The translations under genes were made by a program, and so were the position numbers. Positions 2,968 to 19,854 of a stretch of 61,580 nucleotides of DNA are shown in pieces. Source of the DNA: Gammaproteobacteria bacterium RIFCSPHIGHO2_12_FULL_63_22 (GTDB lineage Bacteria; Pseudomonadota; Gammaproteobacteria; Xanthomonadales; Xanthomonadaceae); contig MGYJ01000057.1 of NCBI GenBank assembly GCA_001801685.1, positions 1 to 61,580 on the forward strand, in the 5' to 3' direction. The notes below the pieces were generated by a model. The model was given only the letters and a program-made list of their open reading frames with translations. It ran no database searches and was not told where the DNA came from. Position 1 is the stretch's first letter, and each line of letters begins with the position of its first letter.

Positions 2968-3950
2968 TGCACGTTCTCGCCATCCAGATCGACGGTGCGC
3001 TGCCCAACATGGCCCTGATGAAGCTCGGCCATTGGCATCTGTCGCATGGCGATACCGTCGAGTACGCGCGCACCTGGAAGCGTGACCTTTTCGACCGGCG
3101 CGCGGATCGCGTCTATATCTCAGCAATCTTCACCTTCAGCCAAGTCAGGTTGATGCAGGCCATGCACGCCTTCCCCGAAGCCGTCGTCGGCGGCACCGGA
3201 ACCCCGTTTAAGGGCACTGTCGAGGAGATCATCGGCGAGTCAGGCTACGAGCATTACGACTACAGCGGCTACCCGGACTTCAAGGAGTCCATTGGCTATG
3301 CGGCGCGCGGGTGCCGAATGGCGACCCCGAAATCAGTGTGCAGAAACTTCTGCGTGGTGCCAGACAAGGAAGGTAGACCCTACAGCGTAAACACCATCGC
3401 CGCGATCTGGCGCGGGAAGCCATTCCCGAGGAAGCTGAACCTGCTCGATAACGATTTCTTCGGCAACCCACAGTGGCGCGAGCGAGTCGCCGAGATCATA
3501 GAGGGCCGTTTCAAGGTCTGTCTGTCGCAAGGAATAAACGTCAGGTTGCTCAACGAGGAGTCGGCTGCGGCCGTCGCAACCATCGAGTACCGGAACACCG
3601 AGTTCAACGAACGGCGCCTCTACACCGCATGGGACAACTTCGGCGATGAGGGTGTGTTCTTTCGCGGCGTGGACATGCTGGAGAGGAACGGCGTCCCGCC
3701 AAAGCACCTAATGGCCTACATGCTGATCGGTTGCGATCCTGCCGAAACTTGGGAGCGCATTTGGCACCGTTTCAATCGCATGGTGGCGCGTGAGATCAAG
3801 CCTTATCCGATGGTGTTCAACCGCGCCAGGAAGGACTTGCTCTGCTTCCAGCGGTGGGTGTTGACTGGCCTCTACCGGATCATCCCGTGGGACAAATACG
3901 AGCGCGAAACAAAGTCGCCGGAGAGCGTGGCGGCATGGGAGGCAGCATGA
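2967..3950 (+). CDS. Radical-SAM-like phage protein with expanded cysteine motif
   Basis: A 327-residue protein. ARGC at residue 116 and CRNFCVVPDKEG at 125-136 mark the iron-sulfur cluster region of radical-SAM enzymes, followed by an IWRGKPFPRKLNLLDNDFFG segment and barrel-like strands. Family members usually have CxxxCxxC; here the spacing is C116-x8-C125-x3-C129. The N-terminus (RVYISAIFTFSQ, then GGTGTP) resembles the Rossmann-like part that precedes such barrels. If active it would cleave SAM to make a radical; the substrate is unknown. It lies between methyltransferase genes and the Gp37/Gp68-like gene with short overlaps on both sides, suggesting co-translation. Confidence 0.7.
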   Translation: MHVLAIQIDGALPNMALMKLGHWHLSHGDTVEYARTWKRDLFDRRADRVYISAIFTFSQVRLMQAMHAFPEAVVGGTGTPFKGTVEEIIGESGYEHYDYSGYPDFKESIGYAARGCRMATPKSVCRNFCVVPDKEGRPYSVNTIAAIWRGKPFPRKLNLLDNDFFGNPQWRERVAEIIEGRFKVCLSQGINVRLLNEESAAAVATIEYRNTEFNERRLYTAWDNFGDEGVFFRGVDMLERNGVPPKHLMAYMLIGCDPAETWERIWHRFNRMVAREIKPYPMVFNRARKDLLCFQRWVLTGLYRIIPWDKYERETKSPESVAAWEAA

Positions 3951-4195
3951 AGTGCGAGAAGTGCGGGCACGAACTAGCGCTCCAGCCGGAAGTCGAGCGA
4001 AGGGAGAAGACCATCCCCGAATTGCAGGCCGAGATCGGCAGGTTGACGCAGGAGTTTCAGTACCGTGTGCTCGGCCTTCCGTCGGAGGGGTTTACCGCAG
4101 CATCATGGCCTTCCTCCACACTTGTACCGCCTGAAAAGTCCGCCCTCAACCCGGCCGCGGCGTGGCCCTTCCCGGCAAGCAAGAAAGATGGCTGA
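3947..4195 (+). CDS. Small zinc-ribbon protein with AWPFP tail
   Basis: An 82-residue protein whose ATG overlaps the previous stop (ATGA). It begins MKCEKCGHEL, a CxxC knuckle likely to bind zinc, has a short helical stretch (IPELQAEIGRLTQEF), and ends NPAAAWPFPASKKDG. The AWPFP block also appears near or at the end of two other small proteins of this phage (56246-56389 and 60935-61429). The 3' end overlaps the next gene by eight bases. Function unknown; it may be a binding partner or adaptor. Confidence 0.7.
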   Translation: MKCEKCGHELALQPEVERREKTIPELQAEIGRLTQEFQYRVLGLPSEGFTAASWPSSTLVPPEKSALNPAAAWPFPASKKDG

Positions 4196-5063
4196 GACCA
4201 CCGGCATCGCCTGGACGAATGCGACATGGAACCCGGTGCGCGGCTGCGAGCGCGTCTCCGAGGGGTGCAAGAAGTGCTACGCCGAGGTTCTGGCCGCGCG
4301 CCACTCCTATAAGGGTGGTTGGGGTGAAGGGCTCGCCAAGTACGTCACCCGTCCCGACGGCACCAAGGAAGCTCGCTGGACCGGAGTGCTCAAGCCGGTC
4401 GAGAAGATGATCGACGCACCACTGCGGTGGAAGAAGCCGCGCCGCGTCTTCGTGAACAGCATGAGCGACCTATTCCACGACAAGATTAGGGACGCCTACA
4501 TCGACCTAGTGTTCGCGGTGATGGCGATCGCCAAGCAGCACACCTTCCAGATCCTCACAAAGCGCCCGGAGCGCATGCAGACCTACATGGTCGGCTTAGC
4601 GCGCAGTTACAACCGCCTGGAGGCGGCGGCACGCGACATTTGCTACACGCTCAAGTACGAAGACATTCCGCTGGTGCGATGGCCGATCCAGAACGTCTGG
4701 CTCGGTGTCAGCGCCGAGGACCAGGATACCTTCGACCAGCGCGTCGAGCTGCTTGGCCGCACGCCGGCCGCGATGCGCTTCGTCAGCGCCGAGCCGTTCC
4801 TCGGCGACATCGACATCGGCAATGCCTTCGACGACACGGACGGCGAGCCAACGAGCAAGTACGGCAAGCTGGACTGGGCAATCATCGGTGGGGAATCCGG
4901 CAGTGACTACCGCCCCATGGACATCGAGGCGGCGCGCGCGTTCATCCAGCAGGTCAAACTCATGGGCGGCGCGATGTTCGTAAAGCAGGACAGCGGCCCG
5001 CGGCCCGGAATGCGCGGCCGGTTCACCGATGCGGAGTGGGCGCTGAAGGAGTACCCGGCGTGA
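4188..5063 (+). CDS. Phage Gp37/Gp68 family (DUF5131) radical-SAM-like protein
   Basis: A 291-residue protein with the family hallmark GCERVSEGCKKCYAE, giving Cys20, Cys27 and Cys30 as likely iron-sulfur ligands. It continues with WTGVLKP, RVFVNSMSDLFH, ILTKRPER, WLGVSAEDQ and IIGGESGSDYRPMD, all characteristic of the phage Gp37/Gp68 family. The family is widespread in phages, is thought to have a radical-SAM-like fold and has no settled reaction. It is the second such protein in the operon and overlaps both neighbours, so a shared pathway, perhaps nucleotide or nucleic-acid modification, is possible but unproven. Confidence 0.88.
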   Translation: MAETTGIAWTNATWNPVRGCERVSEGCKKCYAEVLAARHSYKGGWGEGLAKYVTRPDGTKEARWTGVLKPVEKMIDAPLRWKKPRRVFVNSMSDLFHDKIRDAYIDLVFAVMAIAKQHTFQILTKRPERMQTYMVGLARSYNRLEAAARDICYTLKYEDIPLVRWPIQNVWLGVSAEDQDTFDQRVELLGRTPAAMRFVSAEPFLGDIDIGNAFDDTDGEPTSKYGKLDWAIIGGESGSDYRPMDIEAARAFIQQVKLMGGAMFVKQDSGPRPGMRGRFTDAEWALKEYPA

Positions 5064-5266
5064 CGATCCCATTCGAGCGCGTCATCTGGGACGCCGACCA
5101 GTGCGCCGAGTACCTTGGTTTGTCCTACAGCCAGTTCATCAAGCGAACGCAGTACCTCGAAGGCTTCCCGCCGCGCTGCCCGATACCAGGACATCCGCGC
5201 TGGCCCGCCAATGCTGTGACAGAATGGGTGCTAGGCATAAAGGAGGAAGAACATACCGATGGCTAG
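5060..5266 (+). CDS. AlpA/excisionase-like helix-turn-helix protein
   Basis: A 68-residue protein with GTG start overlapping the previous stop (GTGA). The sequence around WDADQCAEYLGLSYSQFIKR followed by FPPRCPIPGHPRWPANAV fits the winged helix-turn-helix of AlpA/Xis-type proteins, where a helix, a short turn with Pro, and an RW motif pack against DNA. Its position just upstream of the HNH gene, attP candidate and integrase makes it the best excisionase (recombination directionality factor) candidate. It could instead be a small transcription regulator. Confidence 0.65.
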   Translation: MTIPFERVIWDADQCAEYLGLSYSQFIKRTQYLEGFPPRCPIPGHPRWPANAVTEWVLGIKEEEHTDG

Positions 5267-5912
5267 TTTCCGACAGATCGCAAGTGGAAAATGGCAGGCT
5301 CAAGTGTGTCGCAAGGGCGTCCGCAAAAGCCAGTGTTTCGAGTACTTGGAACGCGCGCAACAGTGGGCCGAAAAGGTCGAAGCGACGATCAAAGCGGATG
5401 CCATCGGATTGCCTGAATCAGGCATCCGCTTGGACGGCAAGGAATTGACCGAGATTTACGTCCGCGCCAAGGATCACGCCCGCGAGAGGGGCATTCCGTT
5501 TGAGATAAACCGGGACGACATCGTGATGATCTACGGCCGCAGCAACGGCAAGTGCCAGGTATCCAGCATCACGTTCAACCGATTCCGGCCAGCGGGCAGC
5601 ACCAAGCGCCCTTGGTTCCCGAGCTTGGACCGGATCGACTCAGCAGCGGCCTACACGCCCAAAAACTGCCGGCTGGTGTGCGTAGCCGTGAACTTCGCCA
5701 TGGGTGAATGGGGCGAATGGGTCGTGCGGGCTCTCGCCAGTGCCATTTCCTTCGGACGTCCGGGGAGCCTCCGTAACGGTGCAGAAGCACTCCCGTATCA
5801 GTTCCCGGAGCTCGACGGAACCCCGACCTACCGGCAGCAGGCGAGACGAAAAGCACGACAGAAGAACCCATTCATGACCCACGGCTCAGAAATACAGATT
5901 AAAGCACACTAG
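5259..5912 (+). CDS. HNH-type protein with integrase-like N-terminal arm domain
   Basis: A 217-residue protein with AGGAGGA upstream of the ATG. Residues 1-50 align with residues 1-50 of the integrase encoded next door (about 23 identities, including GVRKS and a W-x-A-Q pattern), an arm-type DNA-binding domain. The rest has GKCQVSS, PSLDRIDSAAAYTPKNCRLV and VNFAMGEWG, which resembles HNH-type nucleases found as free-standing genes in phages. A fusion of an att-site-recognition domain with a nuclease would target the phage attachment region. Activity, and whether the HNH metal site is complete, cannot be judged from sequence alone. Confidence 0.7.
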   Translation: MASFRQIASGKWQAQVCRKGVRKSQCFEYLERAQQWAEKVEATIKADAIGLPESGIRLDGKELTEIYVRAKDHARERGIPFEINRDDIVMIYGRSNGKCQVSSITFNRFRPAGSTKRPWFPSLDRIDSAAAYTPKNCRLVCVAVNFAMGEWGEWVVRALASAISFGRPGSLRNGAEALPYQFPELDGTPTYRQQARRKARQKNPFMTHGSEIQIKAH

Positions 5913-5936
5913 AAACAGTATGTTAGATAACGCCAT

Positions 5937-5956
5937 GAGTCCCTTCCTCGGCACCA
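5937..5956 (+). other. Candidate attP core identical to a tRNA 3' end
   Basis: The 20 bases reading GAGT-CCCTT-CCTCGGC-ACCA fit positions 57-76 of a tRNA exactly: end of the T-loop, 3' T-stem, 3' acceptor strand, discriminator A and CCA. No matching 5' tRNA half is present. The site lies 98 bp upstream of the integrase start, in the only sizeable gap in this region. Integrases of this type commonly use tRNA 3' ends, so this is a likely attP core. The acceptor strand implies a GCCGAGG tRNA, possibly leucine. Confidence 0.6.
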
Positions 5957-6053
5957 CGAGTCTTTCAGCGGCTCACATTCTCATAGAGACATACTCGGGA
6001 AATCGTTGGCAGAATTGCCGCAATTTTGACATCTCTGAACCCACCGATAACCC

Positions 6054-6971
6054 ATGGCGGCGTTTTACAAACTCCCTTCCGGCCTTTGGCGCGCGCAGAT
6101 CAATAGGCGTGGGGTTCGCAAGTCTGCCACGTTTCCGTCCAAAGGAGCCGCTACCGCTTGGGCTGGGCGGGTTGAGTCCGAGATCATGGCCGGGGTCCGT
6201 GGGGAGATACCGAATCTTACCTTCGGAGACGTGCTGAAACGCTATGCCCGCGAGGTCTCGGCGAAGAAAAAGGGTGCCAGGTGGGAAGCAGTGCGCCTGG
6301 AGGCCGTCGGGCGCGACAGGATCGCCGCGGTGAAGCTGCGCCAGTTCGGCCCCTCCCACGTCGCCGACTGGCGCGAGCGGCGCCTACAGGACGTCTCAGG
6401 GGCTTCGGTGAGGCGGGAATGGAACCTGCTCTCCCACGTCTGCACCTTCGCGGTCAGGGAGTGGTCCTGGCTCAAGGTGAACCCGTTCAAGGGACTATCC
6501 AGGCCGCCGGACTCCAGGCCGCGGGACAGGACCGCCACCGAGGGCGAACTCGAGCGGCTCCTGGCCTTGGCCTCGCCGGCGTTGCGCCGGGTGATCCGGT
6601 TCGCAGTGGAGACCGGCATGCGGGCTTCCGAGATTGCGTCCAACCCGCCGGTCAAGGGACGGGTGGCCACCCTCTACGACACGAAGAACGGCACGTCCCG
6701 GGAGGTCCCGCTGTCCGCCGCGGCGCTGGAAGCCTGGCGCGAGGACTTCGGGCTCACCGCCGGGTCAATCTCGGCACTATTCGCTGGACTGTGCGACGAG
6801 GCCGGGATCAAAGGGCTGACCTTCCACGACTTGAAGCACACCGCCGCCACCAGGCTCGCCAAGAAACTATCCCCGCTGGAATTGGCTAAAATGATCGGCC
6901 ACCGGGATCTGAAGATGCTGTTGAACGTCTACTACAAGGCGGACATGGAAGAGGTTGCGAAAAAACTGTGA
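6054..6971 (+). CDS. int: Tyrosine recombinase (phage integrase)
   Basis: A 305-residue site-specific recombinase for integration of the phage. Residues 1-50 form an arm-type binding domain, about 60-150 a core-binding domain, and the rest the catalytic domain. Catalytic positions visible are Arg190 (TGMRASEI), Lys211 (DTKNGTS), His258 in HDLKH, His283 (GHRDLK) and the nucleophile Tyr293 (LNVYYKA). Residue 261, normally Arg in HxxR, is Lys here. attP lies just upstream. The stop overlaps the next GTG. The change at 261 may lower activity or be tolerated; otherwise the protein is full length. Confidence 0.92.
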   Translation: MAAFYKLPSGLWRAQINRRGVRKSATFPSKGAATAWAGRVESEIMAGVRGEIPNLTFGDVLKRYAREVSAKKKGARWEAVRLEAVGRDRIAAVKLRQFGPSHVADWRERRLQDVSGASVRREWNLLSHVCTFAVREWSWLKVNPFKGLSRPPDSRPRDRTATEGELERLLALASPALRRVIRFAVETGMRASEIASNPPVKGRVATLYDTKNGTSREVPLSAAALEAWREDFGLTAGSISALFAGLCDEAGIKGLTFHDLKHTAATRLAKKLSPLELAKMIGHRDLKMLLNVYYKADMEEVAKKL

Positions 6972-7796: not shown

Positions 7797-7861
7797 CCAT
7801 CGGCCTCGCCATCGGCGGTCTGCTCTTCCTCGCCTGCGCGATCGCGGGACCCCTGCTGTGA
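7793..7861 (+). CDS. Very small membrane peptide
   Basis: A 22-residue reading frame, MTIGLAIGGLLFLACAIAGP ending in two Leu, that is essentially one membrane helix. The start overlaps the previous stop (ATGA) and its stop overlaps the following GTG, the same coupling pattern as its neighbours, which argues it is translated. Function unknown. Confidence 0.5.
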   Translation: MTIGLAIGGLLFLACAIAGPLL

Positions 7862-8379
7862 GTAGTCCGCAAGTTCAAGAAATCCAGAGGCGCAGCAACG
7901 CGAAACGCTATGCCGCAAACCCTGACAAGTTCAAGGCGCGCTCAAAAGCATGGTACGACGCCAATAGAGAGCGGGCTGCCGATTACCACAAGGCCTACAG
8001 AGCAAGGAAGCGTGAGGAGAGGCGCGCGTACTTCAGGGCCTACTACGAGCGGAATGCCGAGTGCCTGAAAGCGCGTGCCCGCCAGCTAGGTCCGATATGG
8101 GCTGCGAAAAACGTCGCCAAGGTTCGTGCACGGGCAATGCGCAGGATCGCAGCGGCGCGACGCGCCACCCCACCTTGGGCAGATCACGATGCCATCAATG
8201 CAATCTACTCCGGGTGCGTCGAGATAGAACGCGAGACCGGAATCAGTCACCACGTTGACCATATCGTTCCGTTGCAGGGAAAGACCGTCTGCGGTCTGCA
8301 TGTGGCAGCGAACCTGCAAATCATGCCTGGGGCAGAAAACCAGTCAAAGGGCGCTCGATACTGGCCGGACATGCCGTAG
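7858..8379 (+). CDS. HNH endonuclease
   Basis: A 173-residue protein with GTG start. A long Lys/Arg-rich helical N-terminus (residues 1-110) is followed by HHVDHIVPLQGKTVCGLHVA and NLQIMPGAENQSKG, the DHI-VPL...GLHV-x-x-NLQ form of the HNH motif seen in phage homing-type endonucleases. The first motif His and the following Asn are present. It is probably a free-standing nuclease, or a packaging-associated HNH, although it lies far from terminase in this map. Confidence 0.82.
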   Translation: MSSPQVQEIQRRSNAKRYAANPDKFKARSKAWYDANRERAADYHKAYRARKREERRAYFRAYYERNAECLKARARQLGPIWAAKNVAKVRARAMRRIAAARRATPPWADHDAINAIYSGCVEIERETGISHHVDHIVPLQGKTVCGLHVAANLQIMPGAENQSKGARYWPDMP

Positions 8380-8531
8380 TGGACTACCCGTTCCTAGTCG
8401 GTTTCATCGTGCTCGGCATCGTTTGGCTAATAGGCTCCAGCGTTGAGCGCCTCCACAAATTTGCACGGCCAGCAGCAGTCTTAGCGACAATCGCTCTTAT
8501 TGCAGAGATGCTCTGGCTCGTTCTTCGGTAA
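8379..8531 (+). CDS. Small two-helix membrane protein
   Basis: A 50-residue protein, GTG start, last rightward gene before the convergence point. Two hydrophobic segments (FLVGFIVLGIVWLIG and AVLATIALIAEMLWLVL) are separated by a charged loop with SSVERLHKFARP. It overlaps the 3' end of the opposing giant gene by 35 bases, so no dedicated terminator separates the two operons. Function unknown. Confidence 0.6.
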   Translation: MDYPFLVGFIVLGIVWLIGSSVERLHKFARPAAVLATIALIAEMLWLVLR

Positions 8532-11500
8532 GTTGCGCGATCCTATTGCGGGTCGCATACAGCATGTCCAGGCGCTCGCGCTTGGATTCCGCATCTCCGG
8601 AACGGTACTGCACCATCTTGATCTGCCGGTTGACATTCTGCAACTGCGTCTCGGCGCGGGTATAGAGGCGGTACAGGCGGATTTTGTCGCCCCTGTCCTC
8701 CAGAAGCTTCTTGGCCTCCTCGGTGGCACCGACCTTCTGCAACTCCTTCAGGTCCGCCATCGCCTGCTGCACTTCTTTCATCTGTTCGTAGAGGCGCGTC
8801 ACGTATTTCGACTGGTACGCTGGCATGTCCTTCACGAAGTCACCCACCACCAGCATCTCATCCACGCGCCACGCCGGCTTGCCAGGTAGGTCCATCGCTG
8901 GACGCAGAGCAAGGTCAGCCGTCGAGACGATGTGCGAGCCCAACCAACCGAAGTAGCCGCTGACCAGGTGGTCTATCTGCACCGGGGACACGAAGCCGTT
9001 CTTGCCAAGAAGTTGCGCGGTGGCGGACGTTTGCGGTCCCGACCTGCGTTCCTTCGACACGCGCTCCATGCCGATGCCCTCGATGGGGCGGTCGGTGAAA
9101 CTGTCTCGGTTGGCGTACAACTCGATCAGCGGCATGGCGAGCTGCGGTACTGGGTTCATGGAAAGCTGTTGGCTCACGATGCTAAAGACCCGATGTGCAA
9201 ACTGCTTGCCGGTGAGGTCGTCGGACACCATCGCCTCGAGTCCGCGTTCTGCGATGGTAGCGATGGCGCCAATCTCGAATGGCTTCGGAATGCGGAAAGC
9301 CTTGTCTCCAATCTTGAACCACCAGAATGTCTCGCGGTCCCAATCTTCGCGCCGCTTCCAGTCGTCGTCGTCACGGTAGGCGAGAAAAAGAGCGAGGGAA
9401 GCCAACGTGGCTCCACCGACTACGATACCGAACCGGCGTGGATCTTCTGCGGCACCGCGGCCGAGCTTGTAGAGCCCCTGAAGCCTGGCGTTGAAGAACG
9501 GTACGGTCTGCGACAGGAACCGAATCGCCGCCCACGTCCCCTGCATGGAGAAGTCCATGGTGTCGCGGGCGGCGAAGCTCGCCTCCAGATGAGTCTTTCC
9601 ATCTGCACGCAGCTTCTTGTAGAGGGCGGCGCGGTTCACGTTCTCAGCCCGATCCCCGACGCGCTGCCACCAGTCCCACGCCTGCTGCATGGCGTCCTTG
9701 ACCCTTTCCGGGGTCGTCAGGATGGTCTGGTCGTCAACCCCAGACGCGATCAGGCGCTTGACGTGCTCTGCCCTATCACCGTCAAGAATTGTCCCGAAGC
9801 GCATGACACCACCACCAGCCATGATCGAGGCGTATTCCGGAGTGTTGCTTTTCGTGGACTTCCAACCAGTCAGCACGTTGTCGAGGACGTTGTAGCTTGC
9901 CGGGTTCGCCCCGATCATTTGCAGAGAGTCTCGGATCACGTTGCGGATCCTGAAGGTCGGCGAAACGGTGACGCCCATCGTCAGCCATTTCTTGAACTTC
10001 TGCATGACCTTCATACCGACGCCTTGGAACCCGGTGAAGCCGATCCCCTTGATCGCGTCTAGCAGGAAGGGATCTTCCACCATGAACCAACGCTGCGTCC
10101 CCCGGTCGGTGAACGACACCACGGCATCCTTCAAACCAGACGCCTTCGACATCTGGCGCACTGTAGCCTCTTCGCCCTCGACCACTGCGCCGACGCGCTG
10201 CGCCGCGAGAATAGATTCCTTAGCTGCCTGATTCTTCAGGCTTGCATCGAGCAGGTGCGACCAGTTCTTGAGTATGTTCTCCATTGGATCGCCGAGGGCT
10301 TGCTCGCCACCCTTGAGCACCTTGAAGGCGTACTGGTTGACGAGCCCCTTGGATGGCATCGGCCCCTTGATCTGGTCAGCGTCTTCCATCAAGCGATAGA
10401 ACGGGACGTAGAAGTCATTCTCCCACACTGCGCGGTCAGCGCCGTCGATGAGACCAGCTCTTTCGGCGATGTCGAGCACGGCCTTGTTATAGCGGTCCAG
10501 CTCGGCGCGGACTCTCGCATATTCCTGTGACCGCGACGTTCCATCCAGCATCGTGCCGTGGCTCAAATCTTTTAGTCGTTTCACGTCCTGCGCGGTGAAA
10601 TTGTGCTCCCGGCCTTCGGCGAGAAGACGTTCAGCCCGATTGCCGATCACCCAAGCTAGGAACCGGTCGTGCTCGCCACCAAGCTTCGACATGATGCCGA
10701 GGAACCCACCCTTCTCGAAATTCACGTCCACGGCACCGTCCTGGTCAAGGTAAACCGTACCGTAGTTCAGGAGCCCGTCGAGGGCGTTGTCCGCGCCACG
10801 GGTCATGCGCGCGAGTATATAGGCGTGGTAGTCGTATTCCTTGATGGGATCGAACTGGTCAACCACACCTTGCTTCAAGCGTTTCTGCCAGTCCGTGGAC
10901 CAGTCTTTGACCCTGGCCTTGAGAGTCGGTGGGGTGAACCAGACGCCTGCCTTGCGCAGCGCCTCTTGCGTGTCCATCGGTTGCTGGTCAATCCATGCGG
11001 CGCGATGAAACGCCGGCGGAGGTACGGCGTTATCTTCAGCCTGCGCCAACTCGACATCTTGGTCGACAGCCGACAGCCAGCCAGAATCGTTCTTTGCTTC
11101 CTCGATCAGTTGAAAACTGGCGTCGAACAAATCCTCGAGCGCGCTTCGCGTATTCGCGTTGGCATCGACAATGCCGAGGATGCGGCTGATGATGTCGATG
11201 AAACTCTTCCAAGCCGTACCCTTGTTCTCGACCTTTACGTCTCGCAGGATCTTCTGGAAGACCGGGTGGGTCAAACCCCACGCGACAAACTCGTCAATGT
11301 TGCTGGTCGCCGCGCGGATGATGTTCCTCTCGAAGCCTTCGTCCGGATGCGAGGCCAGCGCGCGCGACACTTCCTGCCGCAGTTCTTCCAGGCGAGCCAC
11401 AGCCGCGTTCTTGGGGTGGGCCCGGATGAACCCCATGGTCCCGGCATGAATGCCCTCGTGCAAGATCGTGGTCTCGGTAAGACCGGTGTCTGAACGCAGG

Positions 11501-14500
11501 AAGATGCGCCGCGAGTCTTTGTGCTGTGCGCTCAAAACCGTCGCGCCGTGCGAATACTTCAGGCTGCCGGGAAACGGGTCGACGTAGTAGGTGCCTGGCG
11601 TGATGATTCGAACGCGCACATCCTCGACCAACGGCAGGATGCGCTTCGCCAACTCCCGGTAAACCCGGTTCTCGCTGTTTTCGGCAATCCACGCGACAGG
11701 TTCCTTGGCGGTGCCGTTGTCGGTGACAACGAGGGTTGGAGTCACTGCCTTGACCGATGGCGCGATAGAAGAAATCATCAAGGCCATGGACCGGCCAAGA
11801 AAGTCCCTGCGGCCGACATCCGTGCCTTGGCGATTGAAGCGGATGTCGGGGTTCTGGGCGTCGAACGTGCCGCGGTTGCCGATGGCTGACTTGACCTGAT
11901 CCTGCTCGAGGACAACGTAGTGCGTCACCGGCCCAGCTGAACCGACCGAATCTGTGTAGTCAACGATCAGACCGTCGTACCCATTGTTTACAAGATTGAT
12001 CTTCAGGTCGAGCATTTGTTGCGCGTTCGGCATTTCGTTTTCCCAATTCCTCGGCTGACGTCCAGTCAGCTTCTCATAGACATCTGACCAGGTTCCGTTG
12101 TAGCCAGCATTGAACGGGTTCTCGATCTTCAAATACACCGGATAGATGGAAGACGCGCCATCTTCAGGAGTGTGGTTCGCGTAATCTTCGGCATCGGTTG
12201 AATCGCTAGTAAAATAGATGCCGCGACCGAGAAGGCCGCTGGTCGATGTCTTAAATTTGTCGAAGTCGCCTTTCGCAGTGCCGTGGTATACGACGCGCGG
12301 TTGACCGTTCTCGTCGACCACCTTCGAATCGCCAAACCAGCGCTGGAATGCCTCGCTCGCGGTCTGGTCGCGCCCGAACGCCGGGACAGCCTGACCAGTT
12401 GTCTCCGCCTGCTGGCCCTCGACGAAGGCGCGAGCCGGCTCGATGAAGTTGGAGATGATGTCGACTTCCGATAGGTCGATGGAAACGCCAAGATCGCGCA
12501 GGAACTGGCGGATCGCAGCGATGAGGCGCTGCACGAAGCTCGAGCGCGGCATGGACTGGGCGAGCTCGGCGAGGACCTCCTCGGCGGCCGTCCGGCGCTG
12601 TTCGATGTCGTTGACGTCGAGGCCGTAATCACGAGCCTTTGCTTCGACGCGGCCCTTCAGAGACTTGGCGACATCGTCGAGGATGGGATCTAGGGCTTCC
12701 CCGAACGTCCCACGCAGCCCGTAGTGCCCGAGGGCCTCATGGAAGATCGCGCGCTGCACCGCCCACGGGGAAGAGAGTTGGTCAGCGAAGAGATGCACCC
12801 GGCCGTGAAGGATGGTCGCGTCGACTCCCCCCGTTGCGCCGGCTGTAGCCCGCTTCTCGTTCTCCGCGCGGATCGCCTGCGGGACGCTGGGCGCGTCGAT
12901 GGAGTCGTGGACGACGATGTCAGGGGCGTTGCCCCAGTTCCTGATGAGGGGTGCTACGACCTTCCGGACTGCGTCAGTACCGAGGCCGCGGCCTTGCGCC
13001 GGGCCCCTGAAGGCTAATGCTTGACCGCCACCTTCGCTTCCAGCGTCGCCTGGTCCTTCCGGGCCTTCGCCGACAGGGGCTTGCCCTTCGCCCGCTCCAG
13101 GGCCACGTCCGCCCGGGCGCGCATCGTCTCGAGCTGCCTTCGCGTTACGGTAATTTTCGAGGGTGAGGATGCCATTTTCGTCGCCGTCTTCGTCGTTGAT
13201 GAACTCGGCCCCCATCTTCTCCCAGAAGCCACGGGCCTTTGGTAGGACCGAGACCGCCGTCAGCGGGATGCCATCGTTGTGTGAAAGGATACCACGAACG
13301 ACCTCCTCGGCGATGCCCTGGCCTCGAAGGTTGGTGTGGGTCTTGATGTAGAGCAACTGCCTGACGTTGCCGTACCTGTTTTTGTTGCCGTCCCACAACA
13401 GAATGACGATGCCGAGGGACCTGTCTCCTCTGGCGATCGTGTACTGGTAGGCGTCACCGCCAGGGAAATACATGCCGACTTTGGTCGGCTCGGTGATCTG
13501 AACGCGCTCGAAAGCGAGAAGCGGTTTGCCGCCTTCGTCGGTGGTGTAGGTAGGTGCGCGGTGGAACGCAGGCGCCTCCGAAGGTTTGTCGACAATGAGC
13601 ATGCGGATCGCAACACCGGTGGTCTTGACCTCACGCTTGTCGGTAAAGGCGCCCTCGAGCTTCTCCGACGTGCCGCCGACCTGGTCGAACCACTCACGGA
13701 AGGCGCGGCTCTTCGCGTCATCGCGGAAGAAGATACCCTCGCCGGTGATCGCCACCAGCTTACCGCCAGGCTTCAGCATGCCGTAGGCGCGCTGGACGTG
13801 CTCGGCATCCATGCCGTTCGAGAACGGCGGGTTCATAATGACCCGGTCGTACTGCTCCTCGGGCTGGAAGTCCATGAAGTCGTTGCCGACCAAGGGGTAA
13901 TTCTTCGCTTCGAGTATTTCGCGCAGGGTGGCGGATTGCTCGACAGTGTCGATCTCGGCGGCGGGCTCCGCGGCGCGCACGGCGTCGGCGAGGTTGCCTT
14001 TCCCGGCTGAAGGCTCCAGCACGCTCATGCCGGGCTGCAGCTCGAGTGCCTCGGCCATGCGCTGGGCGAGATCCACAGGCGTCGGGAAGAAGTCGATGCC
14101 GATACCGCCTTGCCCGGCAAGATTGCGCTCGAGCTCCTTCACCTTGTCGGCCTTCGGCTGCGCGCCCTTGTACTGGACAAATTCGCGCAGTGCGGCGCGC
14201 AGGGACGGTAGGTCTGGGATGTTTGCAGCCTCGAGGCGCTTCACGGTCGCTATGCGGCTCTCCCAGTACCAGGGCGCCGCGTTGTCGTAGCTGTTCTGGG
14301 TGTTGCCACCCTTCTCCAGCGTGGCCTCGACGACAGAACGTGGAATGGTGATCCACTTGTCGGGATCGTTCGTCGTCTCGGCGAGCCGCTTCAGCTGCCC
14401 GGAGAGCATCGTGGTCGCGGGCTTACCCTTCAGTTTGTTGATCGCGTGGAACAGCTGCTCATGGCGCGCGTCGAATGACCACGGCGACTTCGTAAGCTCG

Positions 14501-17500
14501 GCGATGTCGTCGACCTCGACCGCCCGGTCCTTGTGCCTCTCGAAGTCTATCGACGACAGGTACTGCTTCCGGAGGCGATCGTTCTTGGCCTGCGTCGCCA
14601 GCTGACCGAGGGTCTCGACCTGGGCCTTGGTCCGGATGCCGTCCAGGTGCGTCGCCGTGCCATCCTCGATCGCGTTGGACAGATTGCGCAGCGTCTTGGC
14701 CATGGCGATGTTGGCGCGGGCGTCGGCATCTGCGGAGGCAGCCTGGCGCGCGCGTTTCGCGGTGTTGGCGAGCCGGTCCCTGCCCATGGACTCATTCGCG
14801 GCCTCTTCCATCTTGTCGGCCATGGCGGCGAGCCGCTCTGCCGCGGAGTTCTTCTTCTCATCGCGGCGGTCAGTCCGGCGCTCGACTACGGCTTCCTGCA
14901 CGGCCTGGGTATCGCCCTCGGTGGCGAGCTTCTGGAATGCGTCGGCCGCCTCGCGGGTCTTGAATTGGAACCCTGGCACAGCTCCGTCCTTGGCGTAGGA
15001 TGAGAAGTACCCGCCCAATTTCTTCGCGGCAGTGTTCAGCCGGTTGTAGTCATCTCGCTCGACGCGCTTCTCCAGCTGCACGACGAAGAGGTCATGCCCC
15101 TTCTGGGTATGCTTGGTTTCGACAACCTTGGCGCCGACCTTCTCACCGGCGGCCTGCACGGTGGCCTTGGCTTCCTGCTGCTGCACGCGGCGCGCGCGAC
15201 CGGATTTGGCGAGCAGTTCGTCATAACGGGCCATCTGCTCAGGCGTGAGGTCCTTCGTGCCTTTGACGCGGGACACCAGGTCGAAGTCATCCAGCGTCTG
15301 CGGGTTCTTGAAGCCCTCGATGCGCTTCGCGCGCTCGTCGCGCATCTCCTTCACGCGGTCGGCGTAGGCAGCAAGGTCCGCTTCGGTGGTCGACGCGACC
15401 ATCTTGCGGATTGCGTCCTCCATCGCGTTCGGGGTGGTGAGCATGTAGCTTACGCCCCTACCAAGAGTGAAGTCCTGCAGAACGTCGGTGTAGGCCATAC
15501 TGACCAAGCGGTCCTTCTTGGTCTGGCCCATGCGCTGCCCGACACGCTTCTCTAGCTGGTCTTTGGTCAGCTTCGACAGTTCGGCGGTGATCTGCTCTTT
15601 GTTCTCGACCGCCCGTTCGTAGGCGGCTTGAAACTCGTCGACCTGCAGGTTGCCATCGCGCGCGCGATCCATTGTCGCGTCGTGCTCGGCGAGTTTTCCT
15701 TCTGGCACGGAGGCTGGAAGTACCGGCGTTTTCTTCTCGGCGGCAGGCTTCGGCGCCACCGCTTCCTTCATCGCGTTCGCGGCTTGGATCATGGCGTCGG
15801 CGGCAGCCACAATCGGATCAGGTTGCGCGGCGGGGATATTCGGCAGAGGGCTCCCCTCTTTGCGGCTGGCACGGTCGCCAACCTGATTTACAACGTCCGG
15901 CTGCGCGAACAACCCCCCACCGGTCTCCGGCGGCGGGGCCTCGCGCTTCTGAGCCGTCGCGGCAACAGTCTCCGTCCCGAACAACCCACCCTGCTGCGTC
16001 GGCTGCGCCTGCAGTTCTTTCGGCGGTGCGGCGCCCTCCGGAGACGTCAGGACGGCGGTGTCTCTGTCCCGAACTGCGGCGGTCTGCTCTTCGACGTTTC
16101 CAGTGGCGGCTTGGGATTCCTTCGCCTTCAAGTCATCCTTGGATGGCGCTGCCAGCTCGAGCGCTGGGCGCTGATCCACGTCCTTGACCCGCTGCTGCTC
16201 CCAAGATGCAATCTCTCGGTTCATCCTGGCGACGTCGTCCGTCAGGTGCTCGACGATGCGCTGCCGATTGGAGAAATACTCTTTCCAGGTGTCGAAGCGG
16301 TTGTCGTGCTTCTCGATCGTGAGGCCTGCCTTCTGCCGCACCTTTTCGTTTTCGATTTCCTTTTTGTCTCGCGCAATAGAGGTATCGGTCTCGGCGATTC
16401 GCTTGCGCAGGTCGTCGATACGGGCGCTCACAGCCGCGTTGATTTTCTCCGGGTCTCCTTCGGAGCGGCCACGCTCGATCTCCGCCGCAGATTCTTTGCG
16501 GAAGGCGTCGACGTCTCCGGCGATGTAGCGCCCTTTGGCTGAGTCGAAGTCTTCCATCTTCCCGTTCGGAGAGATGATCTTCGATGGTTTCCCGTTGGCA
16601 TCGGTGGCCACCACGATCTGCGGATTGGCCTGCTCGTTCTTGGATCGGAACTGCTTGAACGCTCGAAGCGGATCGCCGCCGTGAGGCACATTGATAGTTC
16701 CGGTTTCACGCTCTCCGCTCTCCCATGTAGAGGCGAAGACATACAGGGTATCTGGCTGCAGCTTGCCGGCGTCGAGGCCCATAGTACGCAACGGGCCAAC
16801 GTCCGTGCCAGCACGACGTTCCGGGATAGTGGGTAGTTGAGTACCCTCTGTGGGGCGCGGCGTGGTGGCGGTGGACTTACCCTCCAATTCTCGCTTTGGA
16901 GGTAAAGAGGGCGCTACTTCGTCGTCTTCGCCCGGCTGGCGCTCTCGCGGTCCCACTTCTTCCGCAAGAGTTTGCGCGCGAACTTCTTCACCGCTGGCGA
17001 CTTGTCCTTCAGATGGGCGAAGCCCTGGAATTTGGTCGAGTTCGGCATTCTTTTCGTCCTCCGTCATTGTACTCCAGGCGTCATGGCCTGTTGGGGCTGT
17101 GTCCACCACCGCCTGCACGTCAGCGGCTTCCTGCGGGGTGATCTCTGGTGCCGCTTCCACGCCAGCCGTATCGTCCTCGGCAAGGCGCACCATGAACTTC
17201 ACGACTTCCTTCTGCTTGCGGGTCAGGCCCTCCCCGGTAAGCGCAGCCTGGACCGCGTTCCGGTAGAACTGCTCGTTTTCCTGAACAGGGCGGTCAGCCC
17301 ACCACTCGGCCTTGGGAATCCATTTCGTGCGACTGAGTTTCTCGTCGCCCGCGAGCTCGCTGCCGACCTTGGTTTTCTGGCGGATCAGGTGCCCGCCGCG
17401 CTCCGCCCAGCCGGCGCTGTCGGCAAGCCCGGGAAGGGCCTCGCGGACGGCAGGGGTCTTGAGTTTGTCTGCAAGCTCCTGGTCAGCCGCCTTGAGCGCG

Positions 17501-19854
17501 GTGCTCTCCTTCACCGCGGACTCGCGCAGCGTCGCGGTCTTGCCCTTTTGGGAGACGACCTCGAGTTCCTTGTCGGTGAGCTGATCGACTGTCCTGCCGA
17601 GAACGGTCTCGCCGGTACGGTCACGGCGCTTCAGTTCCTTCTCCGCAGCGATCTTCTGGTCGAAGTACGGCGCCGACTTCGCCGCAGACTGCAGTTGCTC
17701 AACGCTCATCTCATGCGGCAGGAGGCCGCCAATACGGACCACAGGCGCCTGCTGTTCAGTCGTGGCAGGCTGTTCACGCTTCTTGAACGCCTCTGGTTTC
17801 TGAACACGCTGCGCGCCCGGCTGCGCCTTGGTGAAGGCAGTGACGTCCTGGAGCTTCTGCTTGAATGTCTCCATCGGCATCGGCGTGATGCCTTGGATGC
17901 CGTCCCAGCCGGCTTCGTAGTTCCGGCGATAGAGTGTCACCGCTTCGTCGAGGGTAGAGGCCCCGATCACCACCTTGGGTTCATCGAAGCTGCCGTCTTT
18001 CTTCTTCTGGTCGACGACGAAGACGGGGCCGTTGAATGCCTCCGTAGTGCCTGGTTTGATGAAGACGTCGACGTGCTCCTTGTCGGAGGCCTTGGCAGGC
18101 ACGCCCTTGATGTAGCCGTAGTGATCCTGCAGCGCTACCCATTCCGGCCGGCGCTTGGAGCCCGCCGGATTTTCAATGCTGATGTCGAGTCCGGAGACGT
18201 TGAGATGCCCCTTCTGGTAGTTGCCGGCATCCTTTTGCGCGTCGGTAGGCTCCGGCAGAGGGTTCTGCGAGGATGGTGCAGCCTCGTGAGCAGCGGCATC
18301 CACTGTACTCAATTCGCGTACGTTCGTGCCAATTTCAGGAAGTGCAGTCTCCCCTCCAATCTGAGAATCGGAGGTAACACCTTTCGCGCGTTCCATCGCC
18401 TCCATGCGATCGAGGATGACCTTACCCAACGCTGCGGACATGGCAGACTGCGGCTGAGTCTGACCGCTTGCCTGCTGTTCCGCCTCGCGCTCCTGGCGCA
18501 GGCTGGTCTGGATCGCTGACTCTGCTTCAACGTCCCGACGCTCGCCGACCATGGCGTTGAGGTCCTGACTCTTCTGCGACTCGAGCTGCTGGTAGGCGGG
18601 TTCCTCACGCGCCGCGCGCTCACCACGATCGACGGCCCACTCCATGGCTCCGGTGATGAGACCGCCCATTGGAGAGGCTGCAACGTCTGATTCGAAGATG
18701 GTGGCGGACGTCGCCTGGGTGGCTGCAGCGATCGCTTCTTCAATCGTGCCAGCGCCGCTGATGCTGGTAATGGCATCGGCGACCTTGGCGTCTTCCTTGG
18801 CTGCTGGTGGCTGGGCAGGTTGTTCCTGCGGCTTGAAAATGCCGGTGGCCACACCACCACCACCGCCGGCAGCGCCCTCGGCGATCGCCCCCATGACAAA
18901 CTGCTGCAGCGTGTCGGCCGTCACTGGGCGGTTTCCGCCAGCGGCCAGATTCGAGCCGATGTTCTGGCCGATCTGCTCGATGGCTTCCTCTGTACCGCCG
19001 AGCGGCGCGCCGGCCGCAAGACCGACTGCAGCCTTACCGAGAACACCCTTTCCGGGGATGGTCAAACGTCCACGGGTCAGGGCGCCGATCAAGAAGTTCT
19101 CGAACGCCCCCTCGGCCGCAGACGGGATAGCGTTTCCAAGACCACCGCCAAGGGCCGCGGCTTCGGCAACGGAGTTCTTGGCGACGTCAGGATCGACACC
19201 CGTGTTGAGGAGTTCGCGGTAGAGCCTGGAGTTCGCCAGAAGCTCCTCATGACTCATGGCTTGAAACTTGGTGCGCTCCTCCTCCACACCGCCGCCAAGG
19301 GCCTGCAGGCCGCCCACGGTGGCGCCTATGGCCAGCTGTGCAGGAATGCTCGCTCCTGCCGTCCCGATGGCGATGGCGAGGTTCGGCGCGAACTGGCCGA
19401 TGGCGTTCAGCCCTTGTAGGGCGAGGCCCTTGACGCTGGGGTCAGTGCCGAAGGACCAAGTGTCGGTGTCGAAGAGGCTGCCGGTGATCTGGGTGTTGGC
19501 CTCGGCCCGCTTCGCCCCCGGACTCTTCGACTGCTCGAGCCAGTCGATCGCGCCCTTGAGCGGGTTCTCGGCGCGCAACTCCGTGCCCGCAACCGCATTC
19601 ACGCCGCGCGCTAGTACCTCTCCGCCGCCCTGGGCGATCATGCCAGCGCCAGACAAAACACCGGATGCCGCTGATTTCAGGTAGTCCGTTGGACCGGTGG
19701 TGTCAAGGGACTCAAGGTGCTGCAGGATCTCCTCGTCCTTGTACCCGGCCTGCCGAGCGGCAGGGACATCGAAATTCAGCGAACCGCCGAGATAATCGGC
19801 AAGCTCCGTATCGCTGTAGCCCGCCTTGCGGGCGCCGGCGAGGTCAAAATCCAT
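8497..19854 (-). CDS. Giant polyvalent virion protein (3785 residues)
   Basis: Last gene of the late operon. Approximate layout: 1-50, two short repeats (FDLAGARKAGYSD, FDVPAARQAGYKD); 60-340, Gly/Ala-rich hydrophobic region; 550-660, inorganic-pyrophosphatase-like polyvalent domain (GHLNVSGLDISIENP, HYGYIKG); 1930-2080, adenine-methyltransferase-like (LEPSAGKGN, NPPFSNGMD); 2095-2230, GNAT-like (LRGQGIAEEVV); 2290-2470, zincin-like (HEALGHYG); 2500-2670, ADP-ribosyltransferase-like (VVYHGTAKGDFDKF, GRGIYFT); 2680-2910, second zincin-like (LHEGIHAG); 2945 to the end, LPD38-like, with a membrane-like segment near 3460. Such proteins are thought to be ejected with the DNA to modify host targets and protect the genome. 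Domain calls rest on motifs. Confidence 0.88.
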   Translation of the reverse strand: MDFDLAGARKAGYSDTELADYLGGSLNFDVPAARQAGYKDEEILQHLESLDTTGPTDYLKSAASGVLSGAGMIAQGGGEVLARGVNAVAGTELRAENPLKGAIDWLEQSKSPGAKRAEANTQITGSLFDTDTWSFGTDPSVKGLALQGLNAIGQFAPNLAIAIGTAGASIPAQLAIGATVGGLQALGGGVEEERTKFQAMSHEELLANSRLYRELLNTGVDPDVAKNSVAEAAALGGGLGNAIPSAAEGAFENFLIGALTRGRLTIPGKGVLGKAAVGLAAGAPLGGTEEAIEQIGQNIGSNLAAGGNRPVTADTLQQFVMGAIAEGAAGGGGGVATGIFKPQEQPAQPPAAKEDAKVADAITSISGAGTIEEAIAAATQATSATIFESDVAASPMGGLITGAMEWAVDRGERAAREEPAYQQLESQKSQDLNAMVGERRDVEAESAIQTSLRQEREAEQQASGQTQPQSAMSAALGKVILDRMEAMERAKGVTSDSQIGGETALPEIGTNVRELSTVDAAAHEAAPSSQNPLPEPTDAQKDAGNYQKGHLNVSGLDISIENPAGSKRRPEWVALQDHYGYIKGVPAKASDKEHVDVFIKPGTTEAFNGPVFVVDQKKKDGSFDEPKVVIGASTLDEAVTLYRRNYEAGWDGIQGITPMPMETFKQKLQDVTAFTKAQPGAQRVQKPEAFKKREQPATTEQQAPVVRIGGLLPHEMSVEQLQSAAKSAPYFDQKIAAEKELKRRDRTGETVLGRTVDQLTDKELEVVSQKGKTATLRESAVKESTALKAADQELADKLKTPAVREALPGLADSAGWAERGGHLIRQKTKVGSELAGDEKLSRTKWIPKAEWWADRPVQENEQFYRNAVQAALTGEGLTRKQKEVVKFMVRLAEDDTAGVEAAPEITPQEAADVQAVVDTAPTGHDAWSTMTEDEKNAELDQIPGLRPSEGQVASGEEVRAQTLAEEVGPRERQPGEDDEVAPSLPPKRELEGKSTATTPRPTEGTQLPTIPERRAGTDVGPLRTMGLDAGKLQPDTLYVFASTWESGERETGTINVPHGGDPLRAFKQFRSKNEQANPQIVVATDANGKPSKIISPNGKMEDFDSAKGRYIAGDVDAFRKESAAEIERGRSEGDPEKINAAVSARIDDLRKRIAETDTSIARDKKEIENEKVRQKAGLTIEKHDNRFDTWKEYFSNRQRIVEHLTDDVARMNREIASWEQQRVKDVDQRPALELAAPSKDDLKAKESQAATGNVEEQTAAVRDRDTAVLTSPEGAAPPKELQAQPTQQGGLFGTETVAATAQKREAPPPETGGGLFAQPDVVNQVGDRASRKEGSPLPNIPAAQPDPIVAAADAMIQAANAMKEAVAPKPAAEKKTPVLPASVPEGKLAEHDATMDRARDGNLQVDEFQAAYERAVENKEQITAELSKLTKDQLEKRVGQRMGQTKKDRLVSMAYTDVLQDFTLGRGVSYMLTTPNAMEDAIRKMVASTTEADLAAYADRVKEMRDERAKRIEGFKNPQTLDDFDLVSRVKGTKDLTPEQMARYDELLAKSGRARRVQQQEAKATVQAAGEKVGAKVVETKHTQKGHDLFVVQLEKRVERDDYNRLNTAAKKLGGYFSSYAKDGAVPGFQFKTREAADAFQKLATEGDTQAVQEAVVERRTDRRDEKKNSAAERLAAMADKMEEAANESMGRDRLANTAKRARQAASADADARANIAMAKTLRNLSNAIEDGTATHLDGIRTKAQVETLGQLATQAKNDRLRKQYLSSIDFERHKDRAVEVDDIAELTKSPWSFDARHEQLFHAINKLKGKPATTMLSGQLKRLAETTNDPDKWITIPRSVVEATLEKGGNTQNSYDNAAPWYWESRIATVKRLEAANIPDLPSLRAALREFVQYKGAQPKADKVKELERNLAGQGGIGIDFFPTPVDLAQRMAEALELQPGMSVLEPSAGKGNLADAVRAAEPAAEIDTVEQSATLREILEAKNYPLVGNDFMDFQPEEQYDRVIMNPPFSNGMDAEHVQRAYGMLKPGGKLVAITGEGIFFRDDAKSRAFREWFDQVGGTSEKLEGAFTDKREVKTTGVAIRMLIVDKPSEAPAFHRAPTYTTDEGGKPLLAFERVQITEPTKVGMYFPGGDAYQYTIARGDRSLGIVILLWDGNKNRYGNVRQLLYIKTHTNLRGQGIAEEVVRGILSHNDGIPLTAVSVLPKARGFWEKMGAEFINDEDGDENGILTLENYRNAKAARDDARPGGRGPGAGEGQAPVGEGPEGPGDAGSEGGGQALAFRGPAQGRGLGTDAVRKVVAPLIRNWGNAPDIVVHDSIDAPSVPQAIRAENEKRATAGATGGVDATILHGRVHLFADQLSSPWAVQRAIFHEALGHYGLRGTFGEALDPILDDVAKSLKGRVEAKARDYGLDVNDIEQRRTAAEEVLAELAQSMPRSSFVQRLIAAIRQFLRDLGVSIDLSEVDIISNFIEPARAFVEGQQAETTGQAVPAFGRDQTASEAFQRWFGDSKVVDENGQPRVVYHGTAKGDFDKFKTSTSGLLGRGIYFTSDSTDAEDYANHTPEDGASSIYPVYLKIENPFNAGYNGTWSDVYEKLTGRQPRNWENEMPNAQQMLDLKINLVNNGYDGLIVDYTDSVGSAGPVTHYVVLEQDQVKSAIGNRGTFDAQNPDIRFNRQGTDVGRRDFLGRSMALMISSIAPSVKAVTPTLVVTDNGTAKEPVAWIAENSENRVYRELAKRILPLVEDVRVRIITPGTYYVDPFPGSLKYSHGATVLSAQHKDSRRIFLRSDTGLTETTILHEGIHAGTMGFIRAHPKNAAVARLEELRQEVSRALASHPDEGFERNIIRAATSNIDEFVAWGLTHPVFQKILRDVKVENKGTAWKSFIDIISRILGIVDANANTRSALEDLFDASFQLIEEAKNDSGWLSAVDQDVELAQAEDNAVPPPAFHRAAWIDQQPMDTQEALRKAGVWFTPPTLKARVKDWSTDWQKRLKQGVVDQFDPIKEYDYHAYILARMTRGADNALDGLLNYGTVYLDQDGAVDVNFEKGGFLGIMSKLGGEHDRFLAWVIGNRAERLLAEGREHNFTAQDVKRLKDLSHGTMLDGTSRSQEYARVRAELDRYNKAVLDIAERAGLIDGADRAVWENDFYVPFYRLMEDADQIKGPMPSKGLVNQYAFKVLKGGEQALGDPMENILKNWSHLLDASLKNQAAKESILAAQRVGAVVEGEEATVRQMSKASGLKDAVVSFTDRGTQRWFMVEDPFLLDAIKGIGFTGFQGVGMKVMQKFKKWLTMGVTVSPTFRIRNVIRDSLQMIGANPASYNVLDNVLTGWKSTKSNTPEYASIMAGGGVMRFGTILDGDRAEHVKRLIASGVDDQTILTTPERVKDAMQQAWDWWQRVGDRAENVNRAALYKKLRADGKTHLEASFAARDTMDFSMQGTWAAIRFLSQTVPFFNARLQGLYKLGRGAAEDPRRFGIVVGGATLASLALFLAYRDDDDWKRREDWDRETFWWFKIGDKAFRIPKPFEIGAIATIAERGLEAMVSDDLTGKQFAHRVFSIVSQQLSMNPVPQLAMPLIELYANRDSFTDRPIEGIGMERVSKERRSGPQTSATAQLLGKNGFVSPVQIDHLVSGYFGWLGSHIVSTADLALRPAMDLPGKPAWRVDEMLVVGDFVKDMPAYQSKYVTRLYEQMKEVQQAMADLKELQKVGATEEAKKLLEDRGDKIRLYRLYTRAETQLQNVNRQIKMVQYRSGDAESKRERLDMLYATRNRIAQLTEERARASLQ

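Follow-up and report, generated by a model that had tools for sequence, protein, structure and literature searches.

In the 61,580-nucleotide contig MGYJ01000057.1 of Gammaproteobacteria bacterium RIFCSPHIGHO2_12_FULL_63_22 (this whole stretch is called the window below), a predicted HNH endonuclease of 217 amino acids (5259..5912; window features lie on the forward strand unless stated otherwise) has an N-terminal domain of the same kind as that of the neighbouring tyrosine integrase (6054..6971, 305 amino acids; Pfam Phage_integrase, 2.9e-17), and a putative phage attachment site (attP) lies between the two genes. From comparisons of this locus with related phages and prophages, we consider it slightly better than an even bet that the HNH protein is one of a family of free-standing (intronless) chimeric homing endonucleases directed at the attachment sites of phages.

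A sequence-only reading of the locus had counted about 23 identities between the first 50 residues of the two proteins. This count was recovered, with 23/50 identities in an ungapped alignment, GVRKS included, and a BLASTP E-value of 3e-11, and the similarity is therefore not due to chance. Residues 1-50 of the HNH protein (5259..5408) are homologous to integrase N-termini, so that the nuclease appears, as had been proposed, to carry an integrase-type arm-binding domain, a prediction resting on BLASTP, profile comparison and a structure model. The model reaches a mean predicted local distance difference test (pLDDT) value above 90 over residues 1-40 and shows a beta-beta-beta-alpha arrangement (strands 2-6, 12-18 and 21-27, helix 30-50). 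The domain thus resembles the arm-binding domains of tyrosine integrases by sequence homology and by its predicted beta-beta-beta-alpha arrangement, and differs from them in being fused to a nuclease where the integrases have a recombinase; the integrase arm domain 3jtz was retrieved by Foldseek at E=1.4 only and was absent among the VIA-align matches listed. A profile of the N-terminal domain of the nuclease family matches many integrase N-termini and, judging from these matches, the domain is a common integrase domain. The further suggestion that one of the two neighbours arose from the other did not hold up, because the closest domain is not that of the neighbour: unrelated integrases match the nuclease-family profile with 39.5 bits and the neighbouring integrase with 39.8 bits, and in a second profile comparison the integrases of viral loci L019, L075 and L005 outscored the neighbour. 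Direct origin from the neighbouring integrase was therefore rejected as unproven.

The nuclease domain (residues ~61-167; 5439..5759), delimited by PHROG matches, alignment and the structure model, contains a D-R...Y...N motif in which a tyrosine replaces the classical histidine, as in PacI-like HNH nucleases; in PacI this tyrosine was placed as general base (PMC4081073). A loss of the catalytic residues in homologues had been named in advance as evidence against the sequence-only reading. Instead, D124, R125, Y132, N136 and N145 (5628..5693) are kept in 63/63 non-redundant viral relatives, though the classical HNH histidine is absent, R125 standing in its place in the window nuclease, and the patterns used to scan for relatives contained PS.DR or N.R.VC..N, so that D, R and N were partly selected for and Y132 and C99 were not. 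The same set is invariant in a 40-sequence alignment (40 of the 49 available sequences, the nine omitted keeping the same residues), where it aligns to the PacI DR..D....Y...N motif. A dead nuclease, with histidine changed to arginine, was considered and rejected because the PacI-type motif is invariant. The Cys4 zinc motif of PacI was not found in the 40 sequences, in which only C99 is invariant and C141 nearly so, and 'PacI-like' therefore refers to the catalytic motif only and does not make the protein a PacI relative. A fold search with a model of mean pLDDT 82 (a first model, with mean pLDDT 51, was set aside) returned PacI (PDB 3ldy) as the only plausible PDB match, and a weak one; besides this weak match and the unconserved four-cysteine pattern, the added N-terminal arm domain sets the protein apart from PacI. 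Among protein families, PHROG 3322 'endonuclease' gave the best match to the nuclease domain (phrog_3322, 1.2e-19); its entry as returned is silent on integrases and att sites, and its first ~52 positions are unmatched. Phrog_3118 and phrog_1035 endonuclease VII (4.3e-11) also match, both in the nuclease part, and the window nuclease has no Pfam or NCBIfam match at E up to 1. Taken with its relatives, the HNH protein is a probable DNA-cutting enzyme.

When the same architecture was searched for elsewhere, it was found to recur in many phages, with the nuclease adjoining an integrase. A first viral scan returned the window, one integrase (L005) and two phage contigs, L003 and L004, with the order HNH gene, gap, integrase; a small open reading frame (ORF) that is xis-like by eye precedes the HNH gene of L004, and the L003 contig starts just before its HNH gene. 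Further viral scans gave 13 loci and then the best 80 of 161 relatives, of which 63 were left for the family counts after identical nuclease domains had been collapsed. A tyrosine integrase lies within 1.5 kb at 43/63 of these family loci compared to 0/65 control HNH loci, with distances measured from the complete open frame for family loci and from the tblastn match for control loci. As control we used the family of a second HNH gene in the window (7858-8379), for which 79 of 80 loci (the best 80 of 472), or 65 after deduplication, were available; the copy in the window itself (L228), which is 886 bp away from the integrase, was left out, and including it gives 1/66. The integrase detection profile was built from 61 integrases, and serine integrases and distant types were therefore missed. 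Where a strong nuclease match is joined to an N-terminal extension of at least 50 residues, an integrase is present in 37/43 loci. As to the six such loci without one (L131, L157, L171, L178, L179 and L185), L131 and L122 are one contig, and the L122 protein is that of genome G396; L157 and L171 have arm-like N-termini, and L179 and L185 have an apparently different N-terminus.

Nuclease relatives with other N-termini were also retrieved in genome searches. A first scan of genome contigs with the three closest proteins gave no matches, three queries against isolated phages gave part-length matches only, none covering 80% (to the nuclease domain and once also to an integrase N-terminus), and a plasmid search gave one part-length match only. 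At L119-L121 (identical protein) and at L163 the same nuclease, without the N-terminal arm domain, stands beside a different integrase type; a C-terminal stretch is AP2-like by eye in the former, and the latter has a C-terminal extension of ~100 residues.

The kind of N-terminal domain carried by the nuclease follows, in aggregate, that of the adjacent integrase. Loci entered this test if an integrase lay within 1.5 kb and the match was at least 120 residues long (42 viral loci, with genome loci G286 and G176 added by hand); the nearest integrase was taken even if wrong, as at L138, and the N-terminal windows of four pairs were hand-set to start at methionine. Over the 44 nuclease/integrase pairs the mean local score was 60.8 compared to 29.8±2.1 after shuffling, with 0/10,000 permutations reaching the observed mean, and a strict set of 37 pairs gave 60.8 compared to 29.5±2.3 (again 0/10,000). 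The two controls were flat, with 22.8 against 23.9 shuffled (nuclease domain with integrase N-terminus) and 25.8 against 25.0 (nuclease N-terminus with integrase C-terminus, reached by 726/5,000). Taken singly and compared with 1,870 unrelated pairs, 20/44 pairs exceed the 95th percentile and 12/44 the 99th. Pairs that are striking by eye are L166 (nuclease MRPRKVNADLPPCVYEKHGAFYFV, integrase MRPRKKNRELPSCVYLKHGAYWYV), L130, L142, L151, L154, L170 and L172. At L138 (2887-5959) the nuclease gene lies between two tandem integrases with different N-terminal domains and matches the upstream one, possibly a module caught in exchange.

The placement of the HNH gene beside attP, likewise part of the sequence-only reading, gained independent support from an invariant 20-mer core, a tRNA-Leu match and flanking direct repeats, which together mark 5937..5956 as the predicted core. 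This 20 bp sequence, GAGTCCCTTCCTCGGCACCA (5937-5956), is invariant between the HNH gene and int in the window, L003 and L004, whose HNH proteins are 60% (L003) and 45% (L004) identical to that of the window, and within the viral collection it occurs at four places, namely these three and L019. It corresponds to the 3' end of tRNA-Leu(CAG) with one mismatch in 3/100 related genomes searched. When the host genome was searched for the bacterial site attB, the core (up to 2 mismatches) was found nowhere but in the window. Since the host tRNA-Leu(CAG) (G000 C35:21030-21109) differs from the core at three positions, and that of three other genomes of the order at one, the usual host or integration site of the window phage may lie elsewhere. 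The attP is unsplit on the contig and this phage copy is therefore not integrated at that site.

On both sides of the core, the window, L003, L004 and L019 have direct repeats, each with two similar halves spaced 11 bp apart. In the window, the left (P) arm-type repeat AACCCATTCATGACCCAC (5865..5882), recognised by pattern scan and shuffle test, falls within the 3' end of the HNH gene, and the right (P') arm-type repeat AACCCACCGATAACCCAT (6038..6055) overlaps the first bases of the integrase start codon. All four phages have the right repeat at 78-81 bp from the core, and the left repeat lies 54-58 bp from it in the three HNH-carrying phages and 27 bp in the HNH-less L019; the HNH stop codon is 24 bp (window), 25 bp (L003) and 10 bp (L004) from the core. 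Shuffle tests of the repeats gave p ~0.02-0.04 over the window and L004 together (~0.02-0.03 for the window by itself), whereas L003 and L019 gave 0-0.002. The arm pattern, derived from the repeats of the window and L003 and thus from the same sites it then recovered, has no further occurrence in the window. The repeat types differ, being AACCCA in the window and L003, TACGC in L004 and TCACGA in L019, and the repeats of L004 (2264-2283 and 2438-2457) and L019 (8966-8985 and 9110-9129) are very different sequences around an identical core. Compared with the window, the arm code changes in L004 and L019 while core and layout stay.

A position at the end of a tRNA gene is found in other members of the family as well. 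In L132, L134, L151, L224 (G286), L225 (G176) and L226 (G396), 32-72 bp separate the stop codon of the nuclease gene from a tRNA 3' end. Of these, L132, L134 and L151 came from a tRNA scan of 50 viral loci, in which L140 has a tRNA between int and the nuclease gene, L158 has a distant tRNA-like match and 45 loci have none, most viral contigs being without host flanks. In the genomes G087, G176, G286 and G396 the nuclease gene is at a tRNA 3' end, and in G087, G286 and G396, where enough flank was retrieved, this tRNA end is duplicated 36-49 kb away as repeats of 48-59 bp; these three are therefore prophages with the nuclease at an att end. The integrase is directly upstream of the nuclease in G087, G176 and G286, and at the opposite prophage end, i.e. 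across attP, in G396.

The nuclease gene is optional. Integrases of the tRNA-Pro group occur in 14/297 host-family genomes, four of them partial, and the nuclease carriers among them are G087, G286 and G176. In G236, G198, G030, G019 and G273, int leads directly into ATAGGGTG-type repeats (11-bp step) followed by the tRNA; in G098 the tRNA is equally distant and the repeats are weaker, and G044, G181 and the remaining partial integrases show within 1.5 kb neither a nuclease motif nor such an int-repeat-tRNA layout. Three of the 10 full-length integrases thus have the nuclease gene and seven do not, G044 and G181 showing no tRNA or repeats in view. The integrases of G176 (with) and G019 (without) are 96% identical in protein and 90% in DNA, and the extra ORF of G176 sits between the last int codons and the 11-bp-step repeats. 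In a tree of 10 of the 14 integrases (the four partial ones were left out), G176 and G019 are sisters with support 1.0, separate from the G087/G286 pair, which therefore points to gain or loss more than once, or recently. In the group of the window, the integrases of L003 (with) and L019 (without) are sisters with support 0.976; L019, in which the HNH gene is missing, has an xis-like ORF (by eye, directly before the core), the core and int.

Descriptions of free-standing homing genes present them as optional insertions between conserved genes, with cutting of the copy that has no such insertion (PMC6083498). Both comparisons, G176/G019 and L003/L019, likewise show an optional gene between genes or sites that are conserved in relatives without it, and the nuclease active site is conserved. 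An optional gene inserted beside arm repeats points first to intronless homing, rival exclusion being its likely by-product or an alternative to it. According to the proposed mechanism, the N-terminal integrase-type domain would bring the protein to the arm-type repeats of attP (or of the prophage junctions attL and attR), and the PacI-like nuclease would then cut beside these repeats in a related phage or prophage without the gene. Repair of the break with the carrier's copy as template would place the gene between the arm repeats and int (or xis). The insertion itself would part the cut site from the arms, so that the carrier would be spared. The free-standing homing endonucleases F-CphI and those encoded by HNH-AP2 genes similarly are optional genes beside their target (PMC6083498, PMC10448857), and the latter also join a nuclease domain to a DNA-binding part (PMC10448857). 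F-CphI differs in its DHHRN Endo VII motif and in targeting psbA (PMC6083498), and the HNH-AP2 enzymes have AP2 at the C-terminus (PMC10448857), whereas here the added domain is of integrase type, N-terminal and varies with the neighbouring integrase.

Several observations weigh against homing at attachment sites. Twenty of the 63 family loci have no integrase within 1.5 kb, and 24/44 pairs do not rise above the 95th percentile of the unrelated pairs, so that the expected match between the nuclease domain and its own integrase's type holds in aggregate and not for these pairs individually. Among the 24 are L146, which is without the N-terminal arm domain, L138, for which the wrong integrase was taken, and L168 and L189, in which the N-terminal domain of the nuclease is of another type than that of the neighbouring integrase. 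The tRNA-Pro group, used above for the comparison with and without the gene, is also among the 24, with scores of 23-36, which equals background. The arm repeats are intact in carriers, and self-protection must therefore be assumed. Moreover, an intact gene of benefit to the phage would yield the same linkage to integrases, and homing and rival exclusion are hard to separate by sequence. At L168 and L189 the nuclease lies near 3740-4310 with the integrase on the opposite strand, and these nucleases are, by their domain type, candidates for targeting another element.

Odn (Gp88) of Vibrio phage ICP1 provides the model for the exclusion of rivals: it is a chimeric nuclease with an N-terminal DNA-binding domain that resembles that of the replication protein of its parasite, the satellite RepA origin binder, and this borrowed domain directs cutting to that protein's site, the parasite's origin (PMC8263062). 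By analogy, the nuclease family could have borrowed the DNA-binding domain of competitors and, to the benefit of the phage, destroy attP or the att junctions of rival phages or satellites that share its arms. The chimeric logic is the same as in Odn (PMC8263062), the domain type matches the local integrase in aggregate, and the nuclease gene lies close behind xis or int or overlaps with one of them; still, we regard exclusion as an unlikely primary role, if one to be taken seriously. For the window protein the cutting is itself predicted, its PacI-like HNH nuclease is joined to an arm domain as in the phage's own neighbouring integrase, and this domain is common to the resident integrase and many other integrases. 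The carrier has arms of the same type itself and would need to escape self-harm, homing accounts at least equally well for the sporadic presence and the insertion at the arm array, and a PADLOC search with three proteins gave no match at E up to 1. Membership of a defence system was rejected on account of the latter result.

Three other explanations were considered. The protein could act in recombination by binding the arm sites, either in competition with the integrase or in its support, and so set the direction or timing of integration and excision, its nuclease domain being vestigial or structural. The shared arm domain, the position at att and the placement directly after int, or in the window the 8-base overlap with the xis-like gene, would suit this role, which we nevertheless consider improbable, because catalytic residues kept in all 63 divergent viral relatives argue for cutting and close relatives have the same integration module without the nuclease. 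A nuclease like Endo VII, recruited by the arm domain, might alternatively resolve or abort integrase intermediates at att, and the phrog_1035 match would agree with this since integrases make Holliday junctions. Tyrosine recombinases resolve their own junctions, however, in motif and fold the nuclease best matches PacI, a sequence-specific cutter, and not Endo VII, and the gene is absent in close relatives, which makes junction processing the most improbable of these readings. Hardly less improbable is that an ordinary HNH gene acquired a generic DNA-binding domain through recombination, without any target at att. Many integrases share the domain, and AP2 domains are known from other HNH homing enzymes of phages (PMC10448857), but such a plain hitch-hiker would leave the tracking of the N-terminal domain, the linkage to integrases at 43/63 loci and the position at the att end unexplained.

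The genes around the module were annotated as well. An excisionase-like small helix-turn-helix gene (5042..5266; phrog_668 HTH 4.5e-9, phrog_66 excisionase 0.0029) overlaps the start of the HNH gene with its last 8 bases and is directly preceded by a gene for a DUF5131 protein (4188-5063, forward strand; Pfam 2e-69). The second HNH gene (7858-8379, forward strand), located 886 bp past the integrase, is Endo VII-like (phrog_26577 8e-29, phrog_1035 1e-12). A gene that by eye resembles a DNA cytosine methylase (1-1119) is truncated by the left contig end, and its reading frame shifts at 854-1119, suggesting a frameshift or two genes. One ORF of 3785 amino acids on the reverse strand (8497-19854) is by eye a giant multi-domain phage protein.

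In the open-licence literature, searched by titles and opening abstracts, no description was found of nucleases bearing the arm domain of the neighbouring integrase. What appears to be new here is the joining of an integrase-matched domain to a homing or chimeric nuclease whose likely target is att. More broadly, though we would put this somewhat short of an even chance, such 'integrase-shadowing' nucleases may be widespread phage genes that adopt the arm-domain type of the adjacent integrase and make attachment sites targets for homing. By cutting attP, and likewise the att junctions of prophages already resident, they would spread their own gene and put phages under pressure to change arm sequences, integrases and attachment sites. 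For dozens of loci this predicts that the nuclease binds and cuts beside the arm repeats of the integrase it accompanies. If true, PacI-like enzymes with arm domains would be a natural case of re-aiming a nuclease by exchange of a small domain. Attachment sites would then be battlegrounds on which a selfish or weaponised nuclease reads the integrase's arm code, and this could help to explain both the arm differences between phages that share a core and the swapping of integration modules.

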